Source: Bacteroidota bacterium
Lineage (GTDB): Bacteria > Bacteroidota > Bacteroidia > Palsa-965
DNA length: 64,000 nucleotides
Assembly (NCBI GenBank): GCA_016194975.1
Contig: JACQAM010000019.1
Location: forward strand, 1 to 64,000
Direction of reading: 5' to 3'
The notes beneath the pieces are model-generated. The model saw nothing but the letters and a program-made list of their open reading frames with translations, was not told where the DNA came from and searched no databases. Shown piece by piece: positions 28,717-32,633 of this stretch (the stretch's first letter is position 1; each line of letters opens with the position of its first letter). Both the position numbers and the translations under genes were made by a program.

Positions 28717-29415
28717 TTAGAAATGGGTGTAAGTCTGCACACAGCCATTAGCTGTAGTAGAGTTGGTAATATCATGATCGGTGTAAGTGATGTTGAACAT
28801 GATAGGTGCCGATGTTTGTGTTACGGTTCCATTGCCGCTGAAGTCATGCGAAGAATTGTCCGTTCCAATAGGGTTTTCATTCTGCAAAGGAAGTGTTACA
28901 GTGCTTCCGCTGATGGTGGCATAAACGTTATCGTTATTCTGGTAATCTGCGAAACCAACGAGCGCTGCACTGTAATGTGCAAAATGGATTTTTCCGTTTA
29001 CAGTATTATCAGTAGTAATAGTAATGTTATAATTGAAGGCAGGAATAGTAGGAACCGTGTCATGAACAGAATAGTTACCTGTATACATTTCGGCATCATT
29101 TACAATATGAATAACAACTGCCTGATCGGCTTTGTTACCAGCTGCATCTGAAACGGAATAAGTAAGAGTATAAGTTCCTTTTGTGTTCGGGTCAACTGTT
29201 CCGGTAACGGTGATCGAGGTAGAAATGTCTCCGTCCTGATCATCGGTTGCGGTCGCTGTTGGGTTTGTCCAGGAAGTTCCAAGAGAAGCGGTCTGGTCGT
29301 TTCCACCTGTAACAGTGATAACGGGGGCTGTGGTGTCTGCCTTTTTGCAGGAAGACATGGAAATCACTCCCGCGAGGAATGCGACAGAAGCGATCAAAGT
29401 GAGTTGTTTTTTCAT
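28717..29415 (-). CDS. Lipoprotein with DUF5011/HYR-like Ig domain
   Basis: 232 aa. Lipobox VISMSSC-K at about 23. Residues 30-108 form an Ig-like domain of the DUF5011 type: DTTAPVITVTGGNDQTASLG, TATDDQDGDISTSI and YTLTYSVSDAAGNKADQAV. The C-terminal 120 residues form a second beta-rich domain without known motifs. Probably a surface or periplasmic lipoprotein. It is divergent from the KADS-repeat lipoproteins and has its own terminator. Confidence 0.8.
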   Translation of the reverse strand: MKKQLTLIASVAFLAGVISMSSCKKADTTAPVITVTGGNDQTASLGTSWTNPTATATDDQDGDISTSITVTGTVDPNTKGTYTLTYSVSDAAGNKADQAVVIHIVNDAEMYTGNYSVHDTVPTIPAFNYNITITTDNTVNGKIHFAHYSAALVGFADYQNNDNVYATISGSTVTLPLQNENPIGTDNSSHDFSGNGTVTQTSAPIMFNITYTDHDITNSTTANGCVQTYTHF

Positions 29416-29464: not shown

Positions 29465-29472
29465 CAAAAGTA
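29465..29472 (-). promoter_or_regulatory. Predicted -7 element for the DUF5011-like gene
   Basis: CAAAAGTA reads TACTTTTG on the minus strand, a TAnnTTTG match 50 bases before the start at 29415. Confidence 0.4.
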
Positions 29473-29521: not shown

Positions 29522-29529
29522 TACATTTG
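29522..29529 (+). promoter_or_regulatory. Predicted promoter of the first KADS lipoprotein gene
   Basis: TACATTTG is a perfect TAnnTTTG element; a TTTG at 29502-29505 stands 16 bases upstream as the -33 element. The leader that follows (CGCCGGTTAACCAAACTC) is nearly identical to that of the next gene. Confidence 0.6.
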
Positions 29530-29560
29530 GCGCCGGTTAACCAAACTCAAACAACCAAAA

Positions 29561-29890
29561 ATGAAAAAAGTACTCTCAATCGCAGCTATGGCTGCTATGA
29601 CCACCTTCGTAATCTCCTGTGGAGATGGTGGCGCTGCTGCAAAAGCAGATTCTACAAAAAAAGCGGATTCCGCTCACGGAGTTTTCGTGACAGACTCCAC
29701 AAACAAAGCTGTAGCTGACAAGAAAAAAGCCGATTCTATGGCAAAAGCTGATGCTGATATGAAAGCTAAAATGGCAGCTGACTCTACCATGAAAGCCGAT
29801 TCAATGGCAAAAGCTGGCAGCAAAAAACCGATGACTCCTAAACAAAAAGAGCACATCGAGAATAAAAAGGCAACAAGCGGACGCGGATAA
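29561..29890 (+). CDS. Small Lys/Ala/Asp/Ser-rich lipoprotein, copy 1
   Basis: 109 aa from the ATG at 29561, chosen because MKKVLSIAAMAAMTTFVISC is a lipoprotein signal with its cysteine at residue 20; the upstream open frame is not used. After GDGG the mature part repeats K-K-A-D-S/T and D-S-M-A-K motifs (KADSTKKADSAHG, KKKADSMAKADADMKAKMA). It is probably an extended or helical periplasmic/outer-membrane lipoprotein, in role perhaps like Lpp, but no known family is recognised. Same promoter and leader as copy 2; terminator at 29911. Confidence 0.75.
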   Translation: MKKVLSIAAMAAMTTFVISCGDGGAAAKADSTKKADSAHGVFVTDSTNKAVADKKKADSMAKADADMKAKMAADSTMKADSMAKAGSKKPMTPKQKEHIENKKATSGRG

Positions 29891-29910
29891 TCCCCGTTCG
29901 TTCCTACCTA

Positions 29911-29937
29911 AAAAGGGGCTTTGGCCCCTTTTTTTTT
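29911..29937 (+). terminator. Intrinsic terminator after KADS copy 1
   Basis: AAAAGGGGC and GGCCCC-TTTT form a 9-bp stem with a TTTG-type loop, followed by a run of nine or more T on the plus strand. Confidence 0.85.
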
Positions 29938-29977
29938 GAAAAAAAACCAGATAAATCACCAACTATATAATTTTTTA

Positions 29978-29985
29978 TATCTTTG
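29978..29985 (+). promoter_or_regulatory. Predicted promoter of KADS copy 2
   Basis: TATCTTTG matches TAnnTTTG exactly. The leader GCCGGTTAACCAAACTC repeats that of copy 1, so the duplication included the promoter. Confidence 0.65.
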
Positions 29986-30015
29986 CCGCCGGTTAACCAA
30001 ACTCTAAAAACCAAA

Positions 30016-30297
30016 ATGAAAAAAGTTCTCTCACTCGTAGCTATTGCTACAATGACATCATTCGTTATCTCTTGTGGAGACAACGGAGAAGCTGCTAAGG
30101 CAGACTCAACCAAAAAAGCTGATTCAGCTCACGGTGTATTTGTAACCGACTCTACTAACAAAGCGGTTGCTGACAAGAAAAAAGCTGATTCAATGGCTAA
30201 AGTTGACGCAGATATGAAAGCTAAAATGTGCGCTGACTCTACCATGAAAGCCGACTCAATGGCTAAAAAAGGTGGCAAAGGTAAAAAAGGAAAATAA
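30016..30297 (+). CDS. Small Lys/Ala/Asp/Ser-rich lipoprotein, copy 2
   Basis: 93 aa from the ATG at 30016. The signal MKKVLSLVAIATMTSFVISC and the mature KADSTKKADSAHGVFVTDST block are almost identical to copy 1. It ends in KKGGKGKKGK instead of the MTPKQKEHIENKK tail, so the copies differ mainly at the C-terminus. It has one extra cysteine (KAKMCADST), absent from copy 1, which could crosslink. A tandem duplication is clear. Confidence 0.75.
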   Translation: MKKVLSLVAIATMTSFVISCGDNGEAAKADSTKKADSAHGVFVTDSTNKAVADKKKADSMAKVDADMKAKMCADSTMKADSMAKKGGKGKKGK

Positions 30298-30340
30298 TCT
30301 GAAGGGCTCTGCCCTAAGATAAATCCGATTTTATTCGGTC

Positions 30341-30370
30341 AAAAAAAAGGGACGATAGGTCCCTTTTTTT
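30341..30370 (+). terminator. Intrinsic terminator after KADS copy 2
   Basis: GGGAC and GTCCC (30349-30353, 30359-30363) with flanking A8 and T7 form a stem that ends in a T-run. Smaller hairpins (AGGGC-TCT-GCCCT and CCGATTTTATTCGG) precede it. Confidence 0.8.
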
Positions 30371-30407
30371 ATGGACTTTAACAACGACCGGAAAAGACCG
30401 AAATCAA

Positions 30408-30415
30408 TATCTTTG
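30408..30415 (+). promoter_or_regulatory. Predicted promoter of KADS copy 3
   Basis: TATCTTTG, a perfect TAnnTTTG, lies 15 bases before the first ATG at 30430, so the leader is very short. Confidence 0.6.
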
Positions 30416-30429
30416 AAGCGTTTCAAAAA

Positions 30430-30696
30430 ATGAAAATGAAAAAAATATTACTACCTATTGCTTTTCTTTGCTTTGTGATCTCTGCATGCGGCGGTGCCGA
30501 TGAAGCTGCAAAAAAAATGCTCGATTCTATGAAAACGGACTCGATCAATAATATTGCGGCAAAGAAAAGAAAAGACGATTCGATTAAACTTGCTGCCTCT
30601 GTCGATAGTTCCAGTAAAGCAGAAAGAATGAAATGGCTTTCAGATTCAACTATGAAAGCGGACTCAATGAAAAAAAACAATAAGAAATCCAAATAA
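30430..30696 (+). CDS. Small Lys/Ser/Asp-rich lipoprotein, diverged copy 3
   Basis: 88 aa (86 if the second ATG at 30436 is used). Signal and lipobox: KKILLPIAFLCFVISAC-G. The mature part keeps the DSMK/KADSMKK words (KMLDSMKTDSIN, DSTMKADSMKKNN) but is otherwise diverged from copies 1 and 2. It appears to be an older paralogue of the same family. Its terminator is shared with the convergent mini-gene at 30739. Confidence 0.7.
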   Translation: MKMKKILLPIAFLCFVISACGGADEAAKKMLDSMKTDSINNIAAKKRKDDSIKLAASVDSSSKAERMKWLSDSTMKADSMKKNNKKSK

Positions 30697-30715
30697 TATT
30701 CTCGTCACAATGAGC

Positions 30716-30739
30716 AAAGGGGCAGCGATGCTCCTTTTT
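30716..30739. terminator. Hairpin terminator between KADS copy 3 and the Cys-rich mini-gene
   Basis: AAAGGGGC (30716-30723) and GCTCCTTT (30730-30737) pair with one G-T pair around AGCGAT. A T-run serves the plus strand; the A-rich opposite side may serve the convergent minus-strand gene. Confidence 0.7.
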
Positions 30740-30864
30740 CATTTGCATTTGCAATCATCACCGCAATCTCCTTTACGCGCAGAATTAAACTGCTTCCGGA
30801 ATCTGAAGAACAGAAAACATGCGGCCAGCAACGCAACAACAATCACTATTACTTTCTCGACCAT
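30739..30864 (-). CDS. 41-aa Cys-rich membrane mini-protein (FeoB-associated-like)
   Basis: Too short for usual ORF cutoffs. Read from the ATG at 30864 it gives MVEKVIVIVVALLAACFLFF, one membrane helix, then RFRKQF, a positively charged stop-transfer, and a cytosolic tail GDCGDDCKCK. This plan, with one helix and a terminal C-G-x-x-C-x-C cluster, matches the FeoB-associated Cys-rich proteins, which usually follow feoB and may handle iron. No feo gene is in the window, so the copy is an orphan. The reading frame ends at TGA within the shared terminator region. Confidence 0.65.
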   Translation of the reverse strand: MVEKVIVIVVALLAACFLFFRFRKQFNSARKGDCGDDCKCK

Positions 30865-30899: not shown

Positions 30900-32633
30900 A
30901 TGAACACAAACAATATTTCTCCGAATACAATGAACACGGAAGTGAACATCCGCGTTCTCCGCAGAATCATTGTTGCATTTGTGATCATTCTTACCAGCGG
31001 ACTTTTCATTCCGCTCATCAATGTAGACGCCGCGCAATACGGTGAAATTTCCCGCGAGCTGAGCCGGACTTCCGACTGGACACATATTTTTCTCCGCGGG
31101 CAGGATTATCTCGATAAACCTCCATTGCATTTCTGGTTGTCTGCATTAAGTTTCCGCATCTTCGGAATTCACGAGTGGTCGTATAAACTTCCGAGCTTTT
31201 TGTTTTTCATTCTTGCTGTTCATTCGGTGATCCGTATGACGAATATTTTTTACGACCGGAGAACTTCTCTCATCGCCGGATTATTTTTCTGTTCTTCCGC
31301 AACTGCTTTCCTCATGACGAACGATGTGCGTACGGACACGATCGTGGTGGGATGTGTTGCTTTTTCTGTCTGGAAATTACTCGAGTGGAGCCGCGGCCGC
31401 GCATGGACAGATCTTTTCGCGGCTTCGGTCGGGATCGGACTTGCGATGCTTGCAAAAGGGCCAATGGGAATAATTTTTCCGGCGTTCATTCTTGGCGTGC
31501 ATTTTATTTTCAAACGCGAATGGAAAAATATTTTTCGATGGGAATACCTGGTGATGCTATTCGTCATTGCACTCCTTGTTTTTCCGATGTGCAAAGGACT
31601 GTACGAACAATTCGACCTTCATCCGGAAAAAGAAGTCAACGGGCATCAATCGGTTTCCGGCCTGCGGTTCTATTTCTGGACACAATCTTTCGGAAGGATC
31701 ACCGGTGAAAGTGACTGGGGAACGAAATACGATAACGGGGCAACAGCATTTTTTTTCACGCATACATTTCTTTGGACATTCGCCCCGTGGTGCCTGCTTA
31801 CCATCGCGGGGATCGGCACAACTGTTTTCAGTATAATCAGTAAGAGATGCAGTGCATCTTCATTGAAAGAATTTTTTTCCACCGGTGGGTTCCTTCTCCT
31901 GTTTCTTGCTTTGTCCGCATCACGTTACAAACTTCCGCATTACCTGTATGTAACCACACCATTCGCTTCTGTGATAGCGGCCGTTTTTTTCTGTGAAAAA
32001 ATTCTTGAACGGAATAATATTTTATTGCAAAGAGTGATTTCCGTAATTCATTCCATCATCATAGCCGCACTTACGCTGTGCAGTATGTTCCTGCTCTTTT
32101 ATGTTTTTCCCGACGGATCATTCCTGTCAAAAGCGCTCGCTGTTGTTTCGGTTTCTTCTGTTTTTTTCTGTTACTATTTTTCTTTCGGCTTCTGGGAGAA
32201 AAATATGTATCCGCTAATTGCCGCGCTGATGTCTTTTTATCTCGTGCTGAGTTTGCACTTCTATCCCCATTTGCTTCAGTATTCTTCAAGTATTAAAGCA
32301 GGAAAAATAATTGCGCAGAATCGCAAGGGGAGGGAAACTGTTTTTTTTACGGAAGATGCAACGGATTACACACTCGATTTCTATGGGCGGCTTGATGATC
32401 CTCCGCTCATTTATGACCCGGCGCTGGTAAGAAATGAATTGAACAATGGGAAGAAAACTTATCTCTACACTTCGATGAGTGAATTGCCGCAGGTGGAGAA
32501 CGATGGATTAACAATAAAAAAGATAACAGAGTTCGATGATTTCCCTGTGCAGTTTCTTACGGGAAAATTTCTTTCTCCTGCTTCGCGGGGTTCAGTACTG
32601 AGGGAACGCATCCTTCTTGAATTCGGAAAATAA
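30900..32633 (+). CDS. GT39/ArnT-like membrane glycosyltransferase
   Basis: 577 aa with about 10-12 membrane helices. The first loop carries NVDAAQYGEISRELSRT, the D-x-E-like acidic catalytic site of PMT/ArnT enzymes, and LDKPPLHFWLSALSFRIFG is the conserved K-P-P-x-x-x-W block. These enzymes move a sugar from a polyprenyl phosphate to lipid A, protein or glycan. The final 100 residues form a periplasmic domain. It starts at 30900, or at the second ATG at 30930 if the first is not used. Convergent with the patatin-like gene, 4 bases apart. Confidence 0.8.
   Translation: MNTNNISPNTMNTEVNIRVLRRIIVAFVIILTSGLFIPLINVDAAQYGEISRELSRTSDWTHIFLRGQDYLDKPPLHFWLSALSFRIFGIHEWSYKLPSFLFFILAVHSVIRMTNIFYDRRTSLIAGLFFCSSATAFLMTNDVRTDTIVVGCVAFSVWKLLEWSRGRAWTDLFAASVGIGLAMLAKGPMGIIFPAFILGVHFIFKREWKNIFRWEYLVMLFVIALLVFPMCKGLYEQFDLHPEKEVNGHQSVSGLRFYFWTQSFGRITGESDWGTKYDNGATAFFFTHTFLWTFAPWCLLTIAGIGTTVFSIISKRCSASSLKEFFSTGGFLLLFLALSASRYKLPHYLYVTTPFASVIAAVFFCEKILERNNILLQRVISVIHSIIIAALTLCSMFLLFYVFPDGSFLSKALAVVSVSSVFFCYYFSFGFWEKNMYPLIAALMSFYLVLSLHFYPHLLQYSSSIKAGKIIAQNRKGRETVFFTEDATDYTLDFYGRLDDPPLIYDPALVRNELNNGKKTYLYTSMSELPQVENDGLTIKKITEFDDFPVQFLTGKFLSPASRGSVLRERILLEFGK

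Follow-up and report, generated by a model that had tools for sequence, protein, structure and literature searches.

What three adjacent genes for very small, repetitive lipoproteins might be doing side by side in one genome, and why each of them should have a promoter and a terminator of its own, is the question raised by a locus in a Bacteroidota bacterium (assembly GCA_016194975.1, contig JACQAM010000019.1, positions 1 to 64,000; hereafter "the window"). An earlier note had likened these proteins, built largely of KADS words, to Lpp. Braun lipoprotein Lpp is small, lipid-anchored and helical, and it forms its own transcription unit. Here we computed family membership, sequon enrichment, promoter and leader conservation, synteny, codon bias and purifying selection, and from the sequences we infer glycosylation, location, abundance, helical structure and role of the KADS proteins. 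The reading we favor, and hold to be rather probable, is that the KADS lipoproteins are abundant, periplasm-facing, O-glycosylated helical rods and that an undescribed Bacteroidia family has expanded locally here to three genes.

Three tandem lipoprotein genes with their own promoters and terminators

The three open reading frames encode proteins of 109, 93 and 86 aa (copies 1, 2 and 3; Table 1), each with a signal peptide and a lipobox cysteine (3/3), in agreement with the earlier description of three adjacent lipoprotein genes of 86-109 aa; copy 3 has a second in-frame ATG at position 30430. A TAnnTTTG box and a hairpin with T-run had been assigned to each gene, and we found all three boxes and three stable folds (1, 0 and 2 of 200 shuffled sequences folded as stably as the hairpins of copies 1, 2 and 3, respectively). 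A simple terminator scanner run on the + strand listed only the copy 3 hairpin, we think because the T-runs of the other two get counted into the stem. Since all three genes have their own box and terminator, and the box recurs upstream of 44 of the 46 family genes described below (mostly 36-45 nt before the ATG), the proposal of independent transcription is supported; each KADS gene would be transcribed singly from a sigma-A promoter.

Table 1. Positions of the features discussed, in window coordinates.
Feature	Position	Strand	Remarks
Divergent Ig-like lipoprotein gene (PF16403 match)	28717..29415	-	conserved partner gene
-7 box TACTTTTG of divergent Ig-like gene	29465..29472	-	sequence; like stretch upstream in several relatives
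-7 promoter box TACATTTG of copy 1	29522..29529	+	sequence, pattern
Conserved leader CGGTTAACCAAA of copy 1	29534..29545	+	predicted mRNA 5' end, +1 at ~29534
Copy 1	29561..29890	+	first-gene-type KADS lipoprotein, 109 aa, 6 sequons, C-terminal tail ...IENKKATSGRG
Terminator hairpin with T-run, copy 1	29910..29937	+	fold -15.3 kcal/mol
-7 promoter box TATCTTTG of copy 2	29978..29985	+	sequence, pattern
Conserved leader CGGTTAACCAAA of copy 2	29990..30001	+	predicted mRNA 5' end
Copy 2	30016..30297	+	duplicate of copy 1, 93 aa, 6 sequons, tail GGKGKKGK, extra Cys
Terminator hairpin, copy 2	30342..30370	+	fold -15.9 kcal/mol
-7 promoter box TATCTTTG of copy 3	30408..30415	+	sequence; without GGTTAACC leader
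Copy 3	30436..30696	+	more distant member, 86 aa, 5 sequons
Terminator hairpin, copy 3	30716..30737	+	scanner hit; fold of 30712-30742, -14.1 kcal/mol

Copies 1 and 2 had been called near-identical, which holds for their proteins and for the leader GCCGGTTAACCAAACTC that they have in common, but not for their DNA (81% identity across a 272-nt alignment). Over the first 84 codons we obtained Ks 1.20, Ka 0.063 and Ka/Ks 0.05, therefore the duplication is old and has been under strong purifying selection; the 17-nt leader is identical in the two copies. The C-terminal tails differ, as reported, and copy 2 carries a cysteine (KMCADST, 30225-30240) in addition to the lipidated one. Since mature cysteines are almost missing from the 46 family members, a disulfide dimer of copy 2 is possible. 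Copy 3, described earlier as older, is indeed the more distant member, and it scores best against second-gene proteins of the family (see below), by a difference that is not decisive. One further, single paralogue was found in the organism's genome (4.10 Mb, 28 contigs), at C8:41365.

The KADS lipoproteins form a widespread but patchy family

The impression that no known family is present was borne out: searches of Pfam and NCBIfam gave no match over cut-off for the three window proteins, a PDB sequence search gave no match, and 25 members searched against Pfam produced only two stray hits under 0.01 (DUF7537 and Orbi_VP5). Neither an Rfam nor a tRNA scan of the window gave a hit, and copy 1 alone, used as a query in named genomes, found no relative. 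Literature searches on Bacteroidetes lipoproteins, O-glycoproteomes, DUF5011, Lpp-like proteins and TAnnTTTG leaders, a scope outside which most subscription journals fell, turned up no description of the family.

A profile search for the repeat, which the earlier note had named as a check, did return homologues. With a profile built from 25 members, full-length-type matches at E≤1e-10 were present in about 97 of 295 class genomes, about a third (hand count). The 210 of 295 genomes matched at E≤1e-3 are not relied on, because some weak matches span the signal peptide only (e.g. profile positions 1-26). In a differently drawn phylum sample, 3 of 198 genomes matched at E≤1e-10, the organism's own included, and the family is therefore patchy. 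For the counts that follow, 48 proteins were collected from the best-matching loci only (L001-L069), with identical ones counted once, and two of them were dropped (202 and 193 aa, E ~1e-7); all of the 46 kept members, four of which come from the organism's own genome, have a signal peptide and lipobox cysteine, this being a condition of their selection. These matches indicate that the KADS lipoproteins are a real, widespread and patchy Bacteroidia family, apparently one that is undescribed.

Relatives in taxonomic family f1 carry paired genes of this family. In some of these pairs the product of the first gene carries a Gly/Arg-rich tail (KATSGRG, KATGGRG or the like), and that of the second has KKLIK or KKK at its C-terminus; KATSGRG-type tails also recur outside f1 (loci L055, L056, L066 and L058). 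In the window, copy 1 carries the first-gene tail, and copy 2 is its duplicate with another tail. One divergent tandem member in f44 (L051:1906-2235) has 6 sequons and lacks both the usual signal sequence and a promoter box.

The mature proteins are dense arrays of a predicted O-glycosylation signal

In excerpts of two reports, the Bacteroidota O-glycosylation signal is given as D-(S/T)-(A/I/L/V/M/T), with near-full use of such sites (PMC8729774, PMC12871550). The repeat word KADSM/T/A matches this signal, as judged from sequence. Across the 46 mature members we counted 212 sequons against 13.3 expected by shuffling, an enrichment inflated by the gathering of members with a profile that itself contains DS and so favors sequon-rich proteins. 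With one protein taken from each of nine families the count was 38 against 2.4, each protein exceeding all of its 2000 shuffles. Two checks are independent of the DS-containing profile. First, copies 1, 2 and 3 have 6, 6 and 5 sequons, numbers reached in 0 of 500 shuffles each. Second, in the organism's own genome D[ST][AILVMT] was enriched 2.34-fold in exported ORFs (177 vs 75.6 expected; n = 53 ORFs) and 1.31-fold in cytoplasmic ORFs (82 vs 62.7 expected; n = 83 ORFs), with export called by a crude rule of our own on 169 ORFs, 33 of which fell in neither class. In the same exported ORFs the variant E[ST][AILVMT] was depleted (17 vs 44 expected). Because the other exported proteins of the source organism are enriched for the same signal, it probably uses a general O-glycosylation system.

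The residue following D[ST] in the 46 members is I in 67 cases, T in 49, V in 30, L in 27, A in 24, M in 15, Q and N in 2 each and S in 1, so that 212 of 217 conform to AILVMT; K, E and R, 28% of all residues, never follow D-S/T. This pattern bears on a reading that we consider quite unlikely, namely that the proteins are low-complexity spacers grown by internal duplication, in which the DS words are an unglycosylated by-product of repeat expansion or helix capping. The K/A-rich, low-complexity sequence of variable length would fit such a spacer, and nearly all S/T codons of the sequons (208 of 217) are TCT, TCA or TCG, which is consistent with shared descent. A by-product of repeat growth is, however, at odds with a third residue that can be any of I, T, V, L, A and M but excludes the abundant K, E and R, with the enrichment of the signal and not of its E-variant in the genome's other exported proteins, and with the low Ka/Ks between copies 1 and 2.

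Family members, proteins of less than 125 aa, contain 3.2-9.4 sequons per 100 residues; in the 53 exported ORFs of the organism's own genome the median is 0.83 and the highest value 3.6 per 100 residues. Excerpts of a Prevotella intermedia study report 10, 7 and 7 identified sites in the most heavily glycosylated proteins (PMC10897501). Like the O-glycosylation substrates of B. fragilis, T. forsythia, P. gingivalis and F. johnsoniae, which are exported and often lipoproteins, the KADS proteins have the same signal; they differ in their small size, their sequon density and the lack of a curated family. The mature part would thus be read as an array of O-glycosylation signals on a Lys/Ala/Glu-rich, probably helical backbone.

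Helical periodicity and the comparison with Lpp

AlphaFold2, run on the three window proteins, gave a model with helices at 43-85 and 93-106, whose confidence was low (mean pLDDT 55, three sequences). Distances between pairs of I, L, V or M residues were enriched at 3, 4, 11 and 18 (1.39, 1.46, 1.56 and 1.39) and weakly at 7 (1.16) and 14 (1.11). This spacing is helix-like, and a glycosylated helical rod would fit it, as would a tether. Between the aspartates of successive sequons, the commonest spacing was 6 (57 of 171 intervals) and 7 occurred only once; we therefore rejected the idea of DS words spaced purely in heptads.

The tether in question would be Lpp-like: a helix, anchored by its lipid in the outer membrane, would be joined to peptidoglycan either by an L,D-transpeptidase acting on the C-terminal lysine or non-covalently through a basic tail, and the sequons would be incidental or secondary. 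We regard this tether as unlikely. It would suit a small lipoprotein with strong codon bias (see below), the helical distances, the C-terminal lysine of 30 of the 46 members, copies 2 and 3 among them, and the two matches to the L,D-transpeptidase domain YkuD that exceed the cut-off in the organism's genome, and for members ending in lysine an Lpp-type tether is possible. Copy 1 and other members, however, end in GRG or similar, the D-to-D spacing departs from 7, and a tether leaves unexplained both the third-residue rule and the missing K, E and R after D-S/T. The likeness to Lpp drawn in the earlier note thus stands in part: the KADS proteins are small, lipid-anchored, probably helical and encoded in their own transcription units, and they are unlike Lpp in their sequon array, in having no Lpp family match (Pfam, NCBIfam) and in the absence of a C-terminal lysine from copy 1 and many first-gene members.

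Codon usage and start-codon context point to high expression of copies 1 and 2

Using a codon score trained on 17 ribosomal-protein genes, we found that copies 1 and 2 (0.130 and 0.183) exceed all background ORFs (n = 169 ORFs) and also the ribosomal-protein mean (0.064). Copy 3 has an unremarkable score (-0.019), which counts against our main reading. When 3000 background pieces of 90 codons were scored, 0.1%, 0% and 20% reached the values of copies 1, 2 and 3. Upstream of the start codon, A was present at -3 in 37 and at -6 in 31 of 44 family upstreams; excerpts of an F. johnsoniae study describe A at these two positions as favoring initiation, with -3 a positive determinant (PMC6847099). 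Codon bias and start-codon context are proxies of high expression rather than measurements; codon bias lends indirect support to the proposed abundance of copies 1 and 2, and none to that of copy 3. From copies 1 and 2, a short mRNA starting with (C)GGUUAACCAAA and having an A-rich start-codon context would yield much protein.

A conserved leader lies at the predicted mRNA 5' end

Downstream of the TAnnTTTG box, GGTTAACC was found in 21 of 44 family upstreams, at a box-to-GG offset of 5 (16/21) or 4 (5/21), and its distance to the ATG varied from 16 to 25 (n = 21 genes). In excerpts of work on Flavobacterium psychrophilum the TAnnTTTG box is placed at -12 to -5 (PMC9723704), therefore the GGTTAACC element would be the first transcribed bases, and the leader of copies 1 and 2 is predicted to be a conserved mRNA 5' end, (C)GGTTAACCAAA. 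The CGGTTAACCAAA element contains an 8-bp palindrome at the predicted transcription start. That copy 3 has no GGTTAACC leader counts against our main reading.

In the organism's own genome, TTTG-N(2-8)-GGTTAACC occurs four times, namely at copies 1 and 2, in the reverse reading of the copy 1 leader, and at C3:12026, where no family member is among the ORFs listed. We then scanned the 295 class genomes with a stricter promoter and leader pattern, TANNTTTGNNN{0,2}CGGTTAACC, and examined all of its 36 occurrences (at L223 a lipobox-proper start 44 nt away was counted instead of the longest ORF). Thirty of the 36 lay directly upstream of a same-strand family gene, in taxonomic families f1, f6, f16, f19, f21, f28, f30 and f44, and 6 did not. 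The same pattern read backwards gave 21 occurrences in these genomes (own count); it is therefore the location of the pattern, not its number, that is informative. Second genes in f1 have starts that are related yet different, e.g. CAGTTTTAACCAAAACAACC. No obvious regulator gene was seen near the leader-bearing loci, and the element may act as a DNA operator, as an initiation sequence or as an mRNA end.

A divergent Ig-like lipoprotein gene is a conserved neighbor

The Ig-like gene is divergent from family genes in eight taxonomic families (f1, f6, f16, f19, f21, f28, f44 and f47); it was absent within the examined flanks of seven f41 genomes, two f4, one f45 and two f6 genomes (G130 and G062), and some loci end too near the family gene for this neighbor to be judged. 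Its codon score in the window (0.073) exceeds 99.4% of the background, a ribosomal-protein-like bias. A Bacteroidota surface-export signal next to the lipidated cysteine is given as C-X-K-(D/E)2 in excerpts of PMC5080379. This pattern, which may not be the signal of this lineage, was present in 19 of 33 Ig-like proteins and in none of the 46 family members; the window's Ig-like protein reads C-K-K-A-D, no exact match. The PF16403 Ig-like surface lipoproteins, although conserved neighbors with high codon bias as well, differ in domain and export signal and are a partner rather than a relative. The distribution of the pattern suggests that the KADS lipoproteins and their Ig-like partner may sit on opposite faces of the membrane.

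This evidence also bears on whether the KADS proteins could be a surface-displayed glycoprotein coat working with the Ig-like lipoprotein, which we judge very unlikely. Divergent pairing kept in eight families would be expected of such a coat, but the known export-signal pattern is missing from the whole set of members, and P. gingivalis, in excerpts of PMC8729774, is biased against O-glycosylating its abundant surface proteins.

Other genes adjoin the family more irregularly. A 40-aa Cys-rich membrane protein is encoded at 30739-30861 (- strand) of the window, whose match to FeoB_associated is borderline (26.7 bits against a cut-off of 27), and a similar small gene adjoins family genes in L027 and L032. 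A PMT_2 (ArnT-like) glycosyltransferase gene (30900-32633) adjoins the array in the window and in L024, L025, L028, L030 and L031, not in L026, L027, L029, L032 and L033. Given the sequons, a link of this gene to O-glycosylation was considered, and we do not claim it; some f1 relatives share the synteny and others do not. A dehydrogenase E1 gene of 666 aa (L024:3621-5621 and similar) adjoins family genes in most f1 relatives and also in f47, f19, f28 and one f6 genome, not in the window; among 80 named loci found through this neighbor, a profile match lay within ~6 kb in only 3, and one of these matches was a weak one to a 187-aa protein.

A candidate substrate for general O-glycosylation

In the reading that we favor, of abundant glycosylated rods, the KADS protein would be exported and then lipidated at its cysteine. 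It would remain on the periplasmic side of the membrane, a placement proposed because the surface-export signal is absent, unlike in the Ig-like partner of many relatives. There, the general O-glycosylation system would decorate its sites, and the product would be a glycosylated rod, anchored in the membrane, that fills the periplasm or acts as a spacer in it; the basic C-terminal tail may touch peptidoglycan. We tentatively extend this to a dedicated periplasmic mucin, that is, abundant lipid-anchored rods whose task would be to carry the general O-glycan. Synthesis from the first gene of the array would then depend on a private element, (C)GGTTAACCAAA, acting at the mRNA 5' terminus or as an operator and conserved where transcription begins in at least eight taxonomic families; this extension is a possibility in which we place much less confidence than in the rod itself.

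The function of the phylum-wide Bacteroidota O-glycosylation system is called an open question in excerpts of PMC12871550, and a small protein made of little but glycosylation signals is a natural test substrate for it. The leader is a separate second lead, a predicted conserved mRNA 5' end almost private to one gene family. The KADS family could also bear on what, in these bacteria, replaces a small and abundant lipoprotein of the Lpp kind.
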